DNA of 50,845 bases from an uncultured Bacteroidales bacterium (lineage in GTDB: Bacteria; Bacteroidota; Bacteroidia; Bacteroidales; FEN-979): positions 1 through 50,845 of the forward strand of contig CAIWXI010000078.1 in NCBI GenBank assembly GCA_903916595.1, in the 5' to 3' direction. The notes under the pieces are model-generated. The model was given only the letters and a program-made list of their open reading frames with translations. It searched no databases and had not been told where the DNA came from. The position numbers were made by a program, and so were the translations under genes. Of this stretch, positions 5,426 to 50,845 are shown in pieces. Position 1 is the first letter of the stretch, and the number at the start of each line of letters is the position of its first letter.

Positions 5426-6286
5426 ATGAAAAAAGAATTAATTGCCGAATTATTAACAAAATTCGAAGATGCCTGTTATGTTTATCAGGATATAGAATGC
5501 TGGAGCGCACGCGAGTTGCAGGAAATATTAGGCTATAACAAATGGGAAAATTTCCTGAAAGTCATTGACAAGGCGAAACTATCCTGTAAAAATTCGGGTG
5601 CAAAAATCTCTGATCATTTTCCTGATATCAGGAAAATGATCAACATCGCTAAAAACGCTCAAAGACAGGTAGTTGACTATGCACTTACACGGTATGCATG
5701 TTATTTAATTGCACAAAATGGCGATGTCTCAAAGAACGAAATTGCATTCGCACAGACGTATTTCGCAGTTCAAACCAGAAAACAGGAGATAATTGAACAA
5801 AGGTTGCTTGATGTTGCCCGCATCACTGCCCGCGAAAAACTATCAAATTCCGAAAAAAAACTTTCCGGGATTATTTACGAACGAGGAGTTGATGACAAAG
5901 GATTCGCGATGATTCGCAGTAAAGGTGATTACGCGCTTTTTGGGGGTTTTACTACTAACGACATGAAGCGTAAGCTGGACCTGCCGGCAAAACGGCCGCT
6001 TGCTGATTTCCTGCCAACTCTGACCATTAAAGCCAAGGATTTTGCCACAGAACTAACCAGTCATAACATACTTGAAAAGGATCTCAAAGGAGAGCAACCT
6101 ATCACAAATGAACATGTGGATAATAATCATGCGGTGCGTAAGATGCTGCTTGAGCGTGGTGTTAAACCAGAAACACTACCACCCGATGAAGACATTAAAA
6201 AGGTTCAAAGGAAGCTTGAAAAAGATGAAAAAAAATTATTGAGAGATATCAAAACGGATAAGAAAGGTGGCTTTCCCGCAAATTAA
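5426..6286 (+). CDS. dinD: DNA damage-inducible protein D
   Basis: A 286-residue DinD homologue. In E. coli DinD is SOS-induced and inhibits RecA filament activity. The N-terminal BRO-like domain is clear (WSARELQEILGYNKWENFLKVIDKAK, residues about 26-51). It is followed by the diagnostic QVVDYALTRYACYLIAQNGD (about 92-111), the AQTYFAVQTRKQE helix, and IYERGVDDKGFAMIRSKGD. The C-terminus ends in a charged helix. The gene is more A+T-rich than its neighbours and has a long noncoding leader, which may point to acquisition. The DUF3127 gene follows after 55 bases. Family membership is strong; regulation cannot be judged because no SOS box is recognisable. Confidence 0.92.
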   Translation: MKKELIAELLTKFEDACYVYQDIECWSARELQEILGYNKWENFLKVIDKAKLSCKNSGAKISDHFPDIRKMINIAKNAQRQVVDYALTRYACYLIAQNGDVSKNEIAFAQTYFAVQTRKQEIIEQRLLDVARITAREKLSNSEKKLSGIIYERGVDDKGFAMIRSKGDYALFGGFTTNDMKRKLDLPAKRPLADFLPTLTIKAKDFATELTSHNILEKDLKGEQPITNEHVDNNHAVRKMLLERGVKPETLPPDEDIKKVQRKLEKDEKKLLRDIKTDKKGGFPAN

Positions 6287-18197: not shown

Positions 18198-18276
18198 TAA
18201 GTAGCGAGGTAGCGAAATAGCGAAGTAGCGAAACTAAACTTTCACCATTTCACCATTTCACCATTTCGCTATTTTC
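18198..18276. repeat. TAGCGAAA / TTTCACCA octamer inverted arrays
   Basis: On the plus strand tagcgaaa-type units (about 18200-18232) are followed by a short spacer and then TTTCACCA units ending in TTTCGCTA (18239-18276). The arms are complementary (tagcgaaa with tttcgcta), so the tract is an inverted pair with little or no core. It lies in the likely 5' leader of the envelope operon. Confidence 0.85.
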
Positions 18277-33368: not shown

Positions 33369-33373
33369 GGAAT

Positions 33374-33505
33374 GTACGATGTACGATGTACGATGTACGA
33401 TGTACGATGTGCGATGTACGATGTACGATGTACGATGTGCGATGTACGATGTACGATGTACGATGTACGATGTACGATGTACGATGTACGATGTGCGATG
33501 TACGA
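33374..33505. repeat. GTACGAT heptamer array, about 19 units
   Basis: About nineteen GTACGAT units with sporadic GTGCGAT variants, 5 bases after the stop of the PLP enzyme. The array is open in frame on both strands because 7 units of 3 bases repeat as MYDVRCT/IVHRTSY, but no start context supports a gene. Confidence 0.95.
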
Positions 33506-35737: not shown

Positions 35738-36805
35738 ATGGCTGGTAACTCATTCGGGAAGAACCTTGTACTGACGACTTTCGGGGAATCGCACGGACCT
35801 CTGACCGGTGGAGTTCTTGACGGATTTCCATCCAATTTTAATATTGACCTTGATTTCATTCAGTCGGAACTGAACCGAAGGGCTCCAGGCATTGGAGAAT
35901 TCTCATCACCCCGTAAGGAAGACGACCGTTTAGAAGTACTTTCCGGAATTTTTGAAGGAAAGACTACCGGGGCTCCCATCGCCTTCATCATTCCAAATAA
36001 TGATCACCATTCTGAAGATTATTCTTCAGTGAAGGATATTTACCGTCCATCACATGCCGATTACAGCTGGGAGCAGAAGTTTGGTCACCGTGATTACCGA
36101 GGTGGTGGAAGGCTGTCGGCCAGGGAAACAGCAGCCCGGGTTGCCGGTGGAGCATTTGCAAAGCTTTATTTGCTCACAAAAAAAATTAATATTCAGGCTG
36201 CTGTATCTGAGATTGGGGGTTTGGGGATGCAGGATGCAGGATGCAGGATGCAGGATGCAGGATGCAGGATGCAGGATGAGGAGATGAAATTAAAGGAATA
36301 CCTGGAAACCATCAAGGCAAGTGGAGATACGGTTGGGGGGATAATAAGCTGCATTATTACCGGACTTCCCGCCGGGATTGGAGAACCTGTATTTGACAAG
36401 CTTCAGGCCCAGCTAGCCAAAGCCATGCTCAGTATCAATGCAGTGAAAGGATTTGAATACGGGAGCGGATTTGCAGGTTCCCGGATGAAAGGCTCGGAAC
36501 ATAACGATGTCTTTGTTTCAGGCCCGGAAGGGAGCGGGTTTCACACAGCCACGAATTTTTCAGGAGGTATACAGGGCGGAATCTCTAACGGAATGCCTGT
36601 ATATTTCAGAGTTGCATTCAAACCTGTATCCTCAATTAAAATGCCCCAGGAAACCCTGGACAAACAAGGTCATCCGGTTCAGTTCACAGGCAGCGGCAGA
36701 CATGACGTTTGTGTAGTCCCCCGGGCAGTACCTATCGTTGAAGCCATGGCCGCGCTGGTTATAGCGGACCAGTTGTTAAATGGTGAAATGGTGAAAATGT
36801 TTTGA
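35738..36805 (+). CDS. aroC: Chorismate synthase with repeat-derived segment
   Basis: A 355-residue AroC, which converts EPSP to chorismate using reduced FMN, last step of the shikimate pathway. Motifs: [16 protein letters not shown] (residues 16-31), [45 protein letters not shown] (about 108-144), [13 protein letters not shown] and [19 protein letters not shown] are all present. Between SEIGG and the helix before SGDTVGG, residues about 164-182 (GMQDAGCRM x2) are encoded by eight GGATGCA heptamers. They take the place of a loop that varies in the family, so activity is probably kept. The last six residues (EMVKMF) come from GGTGAAAT octamers. Directly follows the DUF349 gene. Confidence 0.95.
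36225..36280. repeat. GGATGCA heptamers inside aroC
   Basis: Eight consecutive ggatgca units (56 bases, the last ggatgag) in frame within aroC. Same family as the tract in miaA, but in one orientation only. Confidence 0.95.
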
Positions 36806-36902
36806 GCGGAGCATCTCACATAAGCCGCATCAGGTGAGCGAAGCCACCGTAGCGGCGATGTGAGGATGCGAGCGATTTCACCATTTCACCATTTCACCAT
36901 TT
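36778..36902. repeat. Composite element: octamer arms around a hairpin core
   Basis: Left arm aaatggtg units (36778-36799) encode the AroC C-terminus. A core (36800-36874) can form nested stems: GCAT/ATGC, CTCACAT/ATGTGAG (with a bulged base) and GGTG/CACC around a loop. Right arm atttcacc units (36875-36902) encode the AguA C-terminus on the other strand. The reverse complement matches the element at 50611-50845. Confidence 0.9.
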
Positions 36903-37957
36903 ACCTCCGGCTCCTGCTGGCTCAGGCAATGCCATGCCCCAAGTCCCCAGATTATTTCCACTGAATCGATTCCAACGACCTTACGGTCGGGAAAACACTG
37001 CTCCAGTATTCGTAAAGCTTGTTCGTCCTGTTTGCATCGATAAAGCGGCACGATCACCGATTTGTTTGAGATATAAAAATTGGCGTAGGACGCGGGCAGG
37101 CGCTGATCGTCGAAAAGCACCGGGGCGGGCATAGGGAGTTCCACAATGTCAAGCTGTTTACCATTCAGCAGACGAAACGTTTTCAGCTTTTTCAGGTTGG
37201 CGCTCAGGATAGCGTGGTTAGGGTCGCTTTGGTTGGGTTCTACCATAGTGATCACCCCATCGGTCTTAAAAAAACGGGTAATATCGTCAATATGGCCATT
37301 GGTATCGTCCCCCTCAATGCCATCCTCCAGCCATAAAACCTGGCTTACCCCATAAAAATTCATAAGGTATTCCTCAATTTCAGGCTGCAGGAGACTGGGA
37401 TTACGGTTTTCGTGCAAAAGGCAGGCCGTGGTGGTTAGCAGTGTACCTTCACCGTTAAAATCAACAGCCCCTCCTTCCATCACTATGCCGGGATAATAAA
37501 CCGGCACATTCAGATATTTTCCCGCCAGGCCAGGGATCTTCTCGTCCAGCTCATGAGGGTATTTATCTCCCCAGGCATTGTATCTCCAGCTTACGACGAC
37601 TTTGGGCTTTTCGGCTTCGGGATTGAGCAGGAAGGCCGGTCCATGATCCCTGCACCATGCATCATTAGTAGGATGAATAAGCAGGTCTGTTTTTGACATA
37701 TCGACGCCTGCAACAGACAATTTATTCATTAATTCATCCTTCATTCCTTCATTCCTTATATTAATACAAACCCTCTCGCCTTTTGAAAGCTCTTTGATAA
37801 AGGCATTGTAATAGGGAAATATTTTCTCCAAAGTCCCCGGCCAGGAGTAGGAATCGCTGTGAGGATAACTAAGCCAGGTAGCTCTGTGCCTGTGCCATTC
37901 GGCAGGAAAACTATAACCAAGGTCTTTAGGTGAGGGATGAAGGATGCGGTTTGCCAT
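36878..37957 (-). CDS. aguA: Agmatine deiminase
   Basis: A 359-residue agmatine deiminase of the peptidyl-arginine deiminase-like family; it converts agmatine to N-carbamoylputrescine. Key regions: GYSFPAEWHRHRATWLSYPHS at the N-terminus, the central DAWCRDHGPAFLLN (about 97-110), VMEGGAVDFNGEGTLLTT, and the catalytic Cys344 in GLGAWHCLSQQEP. Only eleven residues follow that motif, and the last ones (NGEMVKW) come from octamer repeats of the composite element. Start ATG 37957 is 21 bases after aguB on the same strand, so the two genes make putrescine as a unit with an arginine decarboxylase encoded elsewhere. Converges with aroC. Confidence 0.93.
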   Translation of the reverse strand: MANRILHPSPKDLGYSFPAEWHRHRATWLSYPHSDSYSWPGTLEKIFPYYNAFIKELSKGERVCINIRNEGMKDELMNKLSVAGVDMSKTDLLIHPTNDAWCRDHGPAFLLNPEAEKPKVVVSWRYNAWGDKYPHELDEKIPGLAGKYLNVPVYYPGIVMEGGAVDFNGEGTLLTTTACLLHENRNPSLLQPEIEEYLMNFYGVSQVLWLEDGIEGDDTNGHIDDITRFFKTDGVITMVEPNQSDPNHAILSANLKKLKTFRLLNGKQLDIVELPMPAPVLFDDQRLPASYANFYISNKSVIVPLYRCKQDEQALRILEQCFPDRKVVGIDSVEIIWGLGAWHCLSQQEPEVNGEMVKW

Positions 37958-44367: not shown

Positions 44368-44388
44368 CCTGGCGCCATTGTGTTAATT

Positions 44389-44524
44389 CGTAAATCGTAC
44401 ATCGTACATCGTACATCGTACATCGTAAATCGTACATCGTAAATCGTACATCGTACATCGTACATCGTACATCGTAAATCGTACATCGTACATCGTACAT
44501 CGTACATCGTACATCGTACATCGT
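44389..44524. repeat. CGTACAT heptamer array, about 19 units
   Basis: About nineteen CGTACAT units with a few CGTAAAT variants between ribD and ribE. The ribD TGA is 8 bases from the array. Same family as 33374-33505 (reverse complement) and 21410-21450. Confidence 0.95.
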
Positions 44525-45698: not shown

Positions 45699-45740
45699 AG
45701 TAAAACCAAAAAACATGAGGGTAAACCACCTCAATATCCA

Positions 45741-45880
45741 AAGTCTTCTTCCATCCAGACTATAACTGTCGGTACCGTAGTTTCAACGGTTCCCTCTGGA
45801 AATCAAAGATGAATAAACATCCATCAATTTTCAGAATAGCGGACTTTACCGCCGATCGGGAATTTCACCCTGCCCTGAAG
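45741..45880 (-). ncRNA. FMN riboswitch (RFN element)
   Basis: The minus strand carries the RFN core: the 5' stretch cagggcagggtgaaattccc, gatcggcggtaaagtccgc, then accgacagttatagtctgg and atggaagaagac at the 3' end. P1 is formed by TCTTC and GAAGA. It lies upstream of ribD and so should turn off the rib operon when FMN is abundant. The 5' strand of the aptamer (TTCAGGGC) is exactly complementary to GCCCTGAA in the terminator, giving an antiterminator. Confidence 0.95.
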
Positions 45881-45916
45881 ATATGTAACAATAAAGAACA
45901 AAAACCAATTCCTGTA

Positions 45917-49901: not shown

Positions 49902-50606
49902 ATGAACATTATAGTTACAGGAGCCGGAAAAGGCATTGGTTATGAGCTCGTTAAAATCCTCTCCAGGCATAAGCAGAACCATATACTGGCCCTCTCCAGG
50001 AAAATGAGTGATCTGAAGGAACTTGCAAACGATTGCCGTAAACAGACGCCCGAAGCAAAGATCACTCCTTACGAATTTGACCTGAATCAGTTTGATTTTT
50101 ATCCTTTCATAGCCCAGAGAGTGGAATCGATGCTTCACCGTATCGATATCATCATTCATAATGCAGGCCGGCTTGTAAACAAACCTTTTTCAAAGACCGA
50201 ACAAGGCGATTTCGACGAGATTTATAATGTAAACGTGAAAGCCCCTTTCTTTTTCACCCAGGCTCTCCTGCCACTGATGAACAGAGGTGGGCATATCGTA
50301 ATGGTAAGCAGCCTTGGAGGAGTTCAGGGATCGATAAAATTTCCCGGACTCTCGGCCTATAGTTCCAGCAAAGGAGCCCTGGCCATTTTAAGCCAATGCC
50401 TTGCATTGGAACTTTCAGATCAGGATATTCATGTTAATTGCCTGGCCCTGGGCTCGGCACAAACCAAGATGTTCGAAAAAGCTTTCCCTGGTATCAAAGC
50501 CCCTCTCTCCCCACAACAGATGGCCTCGTTTATTGCTGACTTTGCCGTTACCGGGCAAAAGTATTTTAACGGGAAAGTGCTGGAGGTAGCGCTTTCGGGA
50601 ACGTGA
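49902..50606 (+). CDS. Short-chain dehydrogenase/reductase
   Basis: A 234-residue classical SDR. NAD(P)-binding TGAGKGIG (residues 6-13), NAG (IIIHNAGRL, about 87-89), catalytic Ser136/Ser137 (MVSSLGG), Tyr153 and Lys157 (YSSSKGA) and a Asn near 112 (VNVKAPF). It probably uses NADP(H), but the cofactor-specific charge after the second strand is not decisive. The substrate is unknown. Start ATG 49902 fits the N-terminal strand. Divergent from the large T9SS gene and followed, 4 bases after its stop, by an octamer array and hairpin element. Confidence 0.93.
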   Translation: MNIIVTGAGKGIGYELVKILSRHKQNHILALSRKMSDLKELANDCRKQTPEAKITPYEFDLNQFDFYPFIAQRVESMLHRIDIIIHNAGRLVNKPFSKTEQGDFDEIYNVNVKAPFFFTQALLPLMNRGGHIVMVSSLGGVQGSIKFPGLSAYSSSKGALAILSQCLALELSDQDIHVNCLALGSAQTKMFEKAFPGIKAPLSPQQMASFIADFAVTGQKYFNGKVLEVALSGT

Positions 50607-50610
50607 ATTC

Positions 50611-50845
50611 AAATGGTGAAATGGTGAAATGGTGAAATAGCCCGCAGCTTCACACCGCCGCTACGGTGTTCCACCTGAGGCGGCTTGTGTGAACTGCTTC
50701 GCTACCGTAATTTCACCATTTCACCATTTCACCATTTCACCATTTCACCATTTCACCATTTCACCATTTCACCATTTCACCATTTCACCATTTCACCATT
50801 TCACCATTTCACCATTTCACCATTTCACCATTTCACCATTTCACC
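50611..50845. repeat. Composite hairpin element with 17-unit octamer tail
   Basis: GGTGAAAT units (50611-50640), a hairpin core (about 50641-50709) and then nearly 17 ATTTCACC units (50711-50845), running off the window. The core has stems GCAG/CTGC, TTCACAC/GTGTGAA, GCCGC/GCGGC and GGTG/CACC. It matches the reverse complement of the element at 36778-36902. Confidence 0.93.

Follow-up and report, generated by a model that had tools for sequence, protein, structure and literature searches.

How does a short hairpin come to sit, time after time, in the middle of another palindrome? The question is raised by 50,845 nucleotides of an uncultured Bacteroidales bacterium (GTDB lineage Bacteria; Bacteroidota; Bacteroidia; Bacteroidales; FEN-979), namely contig CAIWXI010000078.1 of assembly GCA_903916595.1, which was analysed over its whole length and is called the window here. 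The initial annotation had described two copies of an octamer-hairpin-octamer element in it, with paired differences between their stems. Copies were sought by a pattern search first and then by a covariance model (R1) built on 16 copies of this genome, and the features of the window around the two copies are these:

18199 to 18270, no strand: octamer inverted array without hairpin, an empty palindrome of like kind
35738 to 36805, plus strand: chorismate synthase open reading frame (Pfam PF01264), whose final codons enter the octamer arm of copy 1
36778 to 36797, plus strand: first of the two octamer arms of copy 1, (AAATGGTG)n; sequence read directly
36807 to 36874, minus strand: copy 1 of the hairpin unit, 68 bases long, with a GCAT stem end and the loop GGCTTCGCT; R1 83.1 bits, E 3.7e-18
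36875 to 36902, plus strand: opposite, inverted octamer arm of copy 1, (ATTTCACC)n; sequence read directly
36878 to 37957, minus strand: PAD_porph open reading frame (peptidyl-arginine/agmatine deiminase type; Pfam PF04371), convergent to the chorismate synthase frame and ending inside the other octamer arm of copy 1
49902 to 50606, plus strand: short-chain dehydrogenase (SDR) open reading frame (Pfam PF00106), upstream of copy 2
50611 to 50638, plus strand: octamer arm of copy 2, (AAATGGTG)n; sequence read directly
50639 to 50701, plus strand: hairpin unit copy 2, 63 bases, short loop; R1 84.1 bits, E 1.9e-18
50710 to 50845, plus strand: inverted octamer arm of copy 2, (ATTTCACC) x17, cut at the contig end; sequence read directly

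The likeness between the two cores is real: 36807-36874 on the minus strand aligns with 50639-50701 on the plus strand with a 5-base difference in the loop. The local alignment score is 36.5, while 2000 single-base shuffles reach 15.5 at most; no other place in the window is found among the 12 best local alignments to the cores, the twelfth of which scores 13. The three compensatory pairs are there as well, one at GCA[G/T] and two in TTCACAC/CTCACAT. Folded as single-stranded DNA, the cores reach z values of -4.3 and -4.5, and with their octamer arms -13.8 and -8.9, with 0 of 200 shuffles as stable in each case. The octamer arms lie where they had been placed, but they are not a fixed part of the element, since among 20 copies of this genome only 3 have both arms within 150 bases and 2 have one arm. 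The right arm of copy 2 is incomplete because the contig ends at position 50845.

The gaps of the window are rich in short arrays of other kinds. Period-7 arrays amount to 29.5 TRF rows per 100 kb and period-8 arrays to 15.7, compared with 0.6 to 10.3 rows per 100 kb in samples of four relatives (overlapping rows counted throughout). About eight copies of the heptamer GGATGCA lie within the chorismate synthase reading frame (36225-36282), and two arrays of about 19 copies each of one heptamer (ATGTACG, or its inverse TCGTACA) stand 11 kb apart at 33372-33505 and 44388-44524. An FMN riboswitch at 45739-45886 on the minus strand was the only match in an Rfam scan of the window, which found no family at gathering score at either hairpin copy.

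Two copies had been reported; the genome holds about 20, with 24 matches at E <= 0.1 and 21 at E <= 0.001. Across the eight genomes of the genus the matches at E <= 0.001 number 21, 14, 24, 13, 46, 36, 2 and 42. Under strict filters, with 116 candidates scored per genome, 10 of 43 family genomes match at that level, including all eight of the genus, and the 2 of 35 family genomes outside the genus have a single match each, at E about 1e-6. In an order-wide draw, 2 of 393 genomes match at E <= 1e-4, both of them inside the genus and none outside, with strict filters and 12 candidates scored per listed genome, a setting at which weak matches may be missed. Scanning genome contigs for the pattern returned 16 stretches, of which one Bacteroidales MAG (CAISRB01) accounts for 11; the five single matches in unrelated genomes lack the arms and were taken as chance. 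The exact pattern had 0 matches in viral contigs, and blastn with copy 2 as query gave no match in plasmids. Literature searches on REPIN/RAYT systems, heptamer arrays, palindromic elements and loop insertion returned nothing on this sequence, and judging by these searches and the Rfam scan of the window the family seems undescribed. In the genome of the window itself, G000, five copies are no more than about 150 bases away from the end of a contig (C24, at both ends, C63, C78 and C109), so the repeats probably break that assembly.

The counts below use 131 copies among the matches listed, a part of all copies, after dropping four and removing duplicates from overlapping loci. The dropped rows are L079 and L080 (partial, outside the genus) and L049:1425 and L053:1752 (tandem-arm), which are left out of the mismatch, tree and distance counts; all four remain in the gene-context count, from which 5 short-flank copies were left out, while L079 and L080 are kept in the 128-row count of feet and unpaired positions and in the 71-row covariation set.

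What unites these copies is a dispersed imperfect stem that is kept by paired changes and whose unpaired bases are largely constant. The consensus of the unit reads CGCTC-GCAn-C-TTnnCAn-C-GCnGC-TAC-GGTG-loop-CACC-TGA[G/T]-GCnGC-TT-nTGnnAA-nTGC-TTCG, over 63-71 bases in the short form and 109-119 bases in a long form. The long form has about 45 extra inner bases, among which a left-hand GCGTCGC or GCGGAGC and a right-hand GCTCC are often retained while the rest varies; it is present at least once in each of the eight genomes, makes up 4 of 5 copies of G001, and is the sole form sampled in G004 (24 of 24).

Further copies do show compensatory changes. The 16-row alignment (A1) has 7 of 20 pairs changed on both sides, and none with one-sided changes; at that size, the number of pairs with a change on both sides was matched by 25 of 500 shuffles and the number of further pair types by 499 of 500 (by 88 of 500 for A3, the 64-row set below). 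Larger sets of 71 and 64 rows (67 and 61 distinct) have 14 and 10 of 20 pairs changing on both sides, in 131 and 136 cells, and a covariation score that 0 of 500 shuffles reached. Since shuffles ignore kinship, 30 alignments were also simulated, each column by itself, along a tree that FastTree built from 121 distinct arm pairs, by a script of our own in the manner of R-scape and distinct from it; of 1596 column pairs 5 were significant at E <= 0.05, every one of them in the stem. The stem cells (n = 2452) comprise 2349 Watson-Crick pairs, 18 G-T, 34 A-C and 51 others. As for the unpaired positions, the C opposite TT is kept in 123 of 128 rows and the two letters of TT in 127 and 119; the bulge C is conserved less (100 of 128), and none of the rows of G006, a genome with just two copies, shows TT. 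That these positions are mostly constant argues for maintenance of the imperfect fold itself.

Most often a copy is nested among further arms of the same family, that is, with a further left arm on the left side or a further right arm on the right side. With up to 3 mismatches and within 60 bases this is so for 62 of 126 copies, and the reverse for only 1 of 126; control stretches 800 bases away hold an own-arm match at the same limit in 3 of 115 cases. At up to 2 mismatches the figures are 55 nested, 0 reverse and 0 control, and at up to 4 mismatches 78 of 126 copies adjoin own modules against a background of 16 of 115, hence the limit of 3. The distinct arm sets number 115; 61 consist of a single left and a single right arm, and 51 include an extra arm or arms of either kind, in a count made at 5 mismatches, where a few extra arms are chance matches. 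Left arms recur in tandem with a period of 36-38 and sometimes 26 bases, right arms with a period of about 37.

Twenty-four nested composites have at least two contiguous arms of each kind (14 in G007, 6 in G000, 4 in G005), and in these the outer arms match each other beyond chance. Second-left and second-right arms agree at 10.46 of 13 positions, the cross pairs at 9.04 and 9.33, and the inner pair at 12.54. Outer matches add up to 251, against 211.4 (sd 6.9) when arms are permuted and 214.8 (sd 6.8) when they are permuted within genomes, with 0 of 10000 permutations as high either way. Taken one by one, the composites are mixed: 12 have an outer pair that is better matched than either cross pair, 3 have a tie, and in 9 a cross pair does better, 5 of these owing to a match of the second left with the first right arm. 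The inner arms are better matched than the outer ones, which fits growth from inside.

Where does a unit end? Near-identical pairs of copies within a genome (up to 3 differences) number 32 and are not independent of each other. In 13 of them the similarity stops within 4 bases on both sides, which suggests that the hairpin spreads as a discrete unit; in some of these 13 the flanks also hold own modules, but not at matching offsets. In the other 19 the similarity continues at one or both sides, often through own modules nearby. The likeness of two near-identical copies can, then, end with the hairpin itself. Copies also sit at palindrome centres. The two flanks of a copy are complementary to each other at 7.48 against 5.82 (sd 0.17) when flanks are permuted within genomes, and for the 48 copies without an own module nearby at 8.21 against 6.34 (sd 0.36), with 0 of 400 permutations as high in both cases. 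Eleven of those 48 surpass 95% of mismatched pairs, and the arrangements GGCAGATTG-unit-CAATCTGCC and GAGCGGGATTAT-unit-ATCCCGCTC are examples of such complementary flanks.

The octamer arms belong to a layer separate from the hairpin. Some copies are centred in octamer or heptamer inverted arrays, and the octamer-hairpin-octamer form is one such case. The arm orientation that had been claimed from two copies proves fixed across the genus: within 250 bases, 26 of 127 copies have ATTTC[G/A]C[T/C] to their right and 17 of 127 have the inverse to their left, and octamer-type arms in the wrong orientation were seen in 2 and 2 of 127. A hunt with ten-base motifs for a larger mobile unit turned up octamer pieces, edges of own modules and an outer GGAACTNCTG palindrome. 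This outer palindrome, GGAACTNCTG...CAGNAGTTCC, encloses the unit at two G002/G005 slots (L075, L145, L189). The same two genomes have a second dispersed family, in which inverted arrays of the heptamer ATCCAGT flank a GC-rich hairpin GCAGCTTCGCTCCGCTTCGCTGC; in G005 it lies at L230:2370-2500 and 5930-6080. Heptamer arrays are present also in G014 (L294, L296, L303), a family genome with no match to the Y1 transposase domain, and they are therefore independent of that enzyme.

We read the element as a short, non-autonomous mobile hairpin that inserts into the centres, or loops, of palindromes, and give this reading a probability of about 0.5. Insertion into a loop would leave the outer arms separated by the new hairpin; if this is repeated, nested stacks would build up, and with an inverted array of octamers or heptamers as the target the outcome would be the octamer-hairpin-octamer form. 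The mover probably recognises a folded single strand. In short, this is a new family of palindromic hairpins, and probably a mobile one.

We turn next to orthologous slots in related genomes. The SDR gene was located in 7 of the 8 genus genomes; downstream of it lies a unit in G000, a doubly nested one in G007, other short repeats in G002-G005 and none in G006. The gap between chorismate synthase (7 of 8 genomes) and the deiminase holds the unit or its composite in G000 and G005, inverted arrays without the unit in G002, G004 and G007, and nothing in G006, and is interrupted by a contig end in G003. Over 36 hand-listed pairs of orthologous slots the units differ at 13.97 of 61 arm bases, compared with 14.1 for the median non-orthologous copy; orthologues are closer than the median copy in 16 pairs and each other's closest relative in only 3, and the length class differs in 18. 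The nearest copy in the same genome has 6.25 differences, a minimum over many copies and thus an unfair contrast by itself. A stricter automatic rule gives 32 slot pairs, 23 in the same orientation and 9 in opposite orientations. One slot is filled in G005 and empty in G003. Another has its interior inverted between G002 and G005 inside the outer palindrome, which looks like an in-place inversion, so opposite orientations are no proof of re-insertion. No clean excision was found, and the few slots compared by eye displayed no target-site duplication, which a MITE of a DNA transposon would have, along with terminal inverted repeats in common with an autonomous element.

Several of these facts would suit a history without any transposition, made of replication slippage, template switching at palindromes and gene conversion between copies, which we consider possible but rather unlikely. 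Such copying corrects one arm from the other and would give paired changes without selection. It is in keeping with the tandem left arms at periods of 26 and 37-38 bases, with short-array content that varies between species at a slot, with the inversion in place, with heptamer arrays in a family genome that has no Y1 match, and with the many near-identical pairs that share more than the unit. Arm correction should, however, erase constant mismatches, and yet the C opposite TT (123 of 128) and the TT itself persist in rows from eight genomes. Gene conversion, moreover, needs a resident copy, whereas identical or near-identical hairpins sit in unrelated flanks and are alike only up to their edges, and for at least one slot a relative has no copy.

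A second alternative is that the hairpins are kept as RNA or as bidirectional transcription terminators, their mobility being incidental. The initial annotation had taken the paired changes as a sign of selection on structure in RNA or single-stranded DNA; the covariation is real, but wobble and strand counts do not favour the RNA half. The fold is strong and the position intergenic, copy 1 lies exactly between two convergent genes, and among 126 classified copies 36 are in convergent and 21 in divergent slots, a weak excess in a rough count, with gene strands assigned by the longest open frame only. The strand as read has 34 A-C mismatches and only 18 G-T pairs, and hence no preference for wobble; read on the opposite strand, the A-C cells turn into G-U pairs and wobble would lead by 34 to 18, and a function on both strands stays compatible with these numbers. 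Next to co-directional genes 36 copies lie on the same strand and 33 on the opposite one, again with no preference, and orthologous slots are often empty or filled with unrelated arrays. Our reading is maintenance at the DNA level, and retention of the hairpins as RNA or terminators appears to us quite unlikely.

Under the reading of a mobile hairpin, what would move it? A REP-associated tyrosine transposase (RAYT) had been proposed for the search, and each genome of the genus does carry one Y1 gene, but it is not a class 2 TnpAREP, and no copies lie beside it. Y1_Tnp (PF01797) has exactly one match in all eight genus genomes, in single copy and among the same neighbours (synteny judged from the neighbours' ends). 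The proteins are about 143 amino acids long, all eight with a DHIH motif and a Y---Q motif, and the tyrosine of the G005 protein aligns to that of the solved transposases 2xm3 and 2xma. The full Y---Q--HH is found in 4 of 8; the other four, that of the window's genome included, have LH or QH instead of HH. In all eight the W is followed by D or E and not by Q. One of the eight, compared with NCBIfam, scores 25.4 bits with the REP transposase model (cut-off 80) and 50.9 bits with the IS200 model (cut-off 55). No R1 match at E <= 1 lies within about 1.5 kb on each side of the Y1 gene in any of the eight genomes.

Outside the genus, the closest Y1 is that of G034, with 61% identity and the same neighbours; the rest have 53% or less, and a Y1 also adjoins one of the same neighbours in G009. 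The model finds no hairpin copy in G034, its syntenic Y1 notwithstanding, and of the five nearest genomes outside the genus only G020 has a match, a single one. De novo scans add little here: one for perfect-stem hairpins in G034 and in G014 (with and without Y1) was too strict for a bulged element, and one for hairpin families by blast is uninformative on G034, having found 0 families in a 339 kb control from G007 too. Some Y1 is carried by 34 of 43 family genomes, so presence alone says little, and since the element is numerous on only one branch of the tree, co-occurrence with Y1 carries little weight and is suggestive only. The syntenic Y1 HUH enzyme, acting in trans, is the best candidate in hand for the mover, albeit a doubtful one. 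The full chain of events, in which hairpins enter hairpin loops, are moved by a domesticated Y1 HUH enzyme near orphan subclass 1.2, which has no listed substrate, and so build nested covarying stacks, would be less probable still, and we think it unlikely as a whole. That this is a true REP/REPIN family driven by a RAYT is highly improbable: the palindromes are dispersed, REP-sized and bulged, with one syntenic Y1 gene per genome, but they lack a GT[AG]G/CGTC foot, the Y1 protein misses the REP model by a wide score (25.4 against 80) and has Y---Q in place of Y---NP, and no copies accompany its gene.

Should the mobile hairpin be real, it would offer a concrete substrate candidate for little-studied HUH enzymes, reported mostly from Bacteroidetes and Cyanobacteria, and one simple rule, insertion at a palindrome centre, would account for nested repeats. 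If only copying without transposition holds, the family would be a natural record of palindrome growth and of the upkeep of matched arms, and a caution against taking covariation in dispersed repeats as proof of RNA function.

How does the element compare with known systems? The feet of integron attC sites carry the core triplets GTT/AAC; those of the unit read GCA...TGC, and an attC site was rejected accordingly. The intergenic 7-base arrays of cyanobacteria, STRR and LTRR, include in LTRR a period of 37 bases, which the tandem arms here share. Heptamer direct repeats such as TAACTGA likewise form intergenic 7-base arrays, as described in part of PMC4679880. Unlike TAACTGA-type and STRR/LTRR arrays, those found here are often inverted pairs around a hairpin.

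The initial annotation had likened the element to REPINs and MITEs, and this stands as far as habit goes, for these are dispersed palindromes of conserved structure, but not as membership in the REP/RAYT system. REPs are short imperfect intergenic palindromes in many copies, generally with one stable Y1 HUH gene per type, and are thought to be mobilised in trans (passages on REPs in PMC6006769). The unit resembles REPs and REPINs in being dispersed, short, palindromic, intergenic and present in many copies. It differs from REPs in having no GT[AG]G or CGTC tetranucleotide at its foot, where the commonest letters over 128 rows are CGCTC at 5' and T[T/C][C/G][G/C] at 3'; its genus Y1 carries Y---Q, unlike the Y---NP of class 2 TnpAREP, and the absence of copies beside the Y1 gene, the long covarying stem and the nested stacks set it further apart from REP/RAYT. 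A REPIN consists of two inverted REP hairpins and a spacer, whereas the unit is one long hairpin: with RNA parameters, the median folding energy is -4.2 kcal/mol for 87 distinct left arms taken by themselves and -27.1 kcal/mol for 85 short units taken whole. Palindromic repeats with a GTAG or CGTC tag are stem-loops too, the CGTC class being reported in Bacteroidetes (in the portion of PMC3733652 that treats them), and the unit is unlike them in that the tag is missing at both of its feet.

For the enzyme, the nearest likeness is to TnpAY1 subclass 1.2, for which the relevant part of PMC6006769 lists no REP and describes members generally without IS ends, with DH[IV]H, low copy number, Y---Q--HH, a WQ motif and a specific C-terminal domain. 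By that description, the genus Y1 agrees in DHIH, Y---Q, size, single copy, Bacteroidetes host and the lack of model hairpins at its ends, and departs from it in that only 4 of 8 proteins have the full Y---Q--HH and the W precedes D or E. For the target, finally, there is precedent in IS1397, IS621, ISPpu9 and others, which insert into REP palindromes according to the passages concerned in PMC1525189. As with those elements, palindromes serve as insertion targets; unlike them, each a whole IS with its own transposase, what stands in the palindrome here is a 70-base non-coding hairpin, and the palindromes that hold it include those of its own kind.
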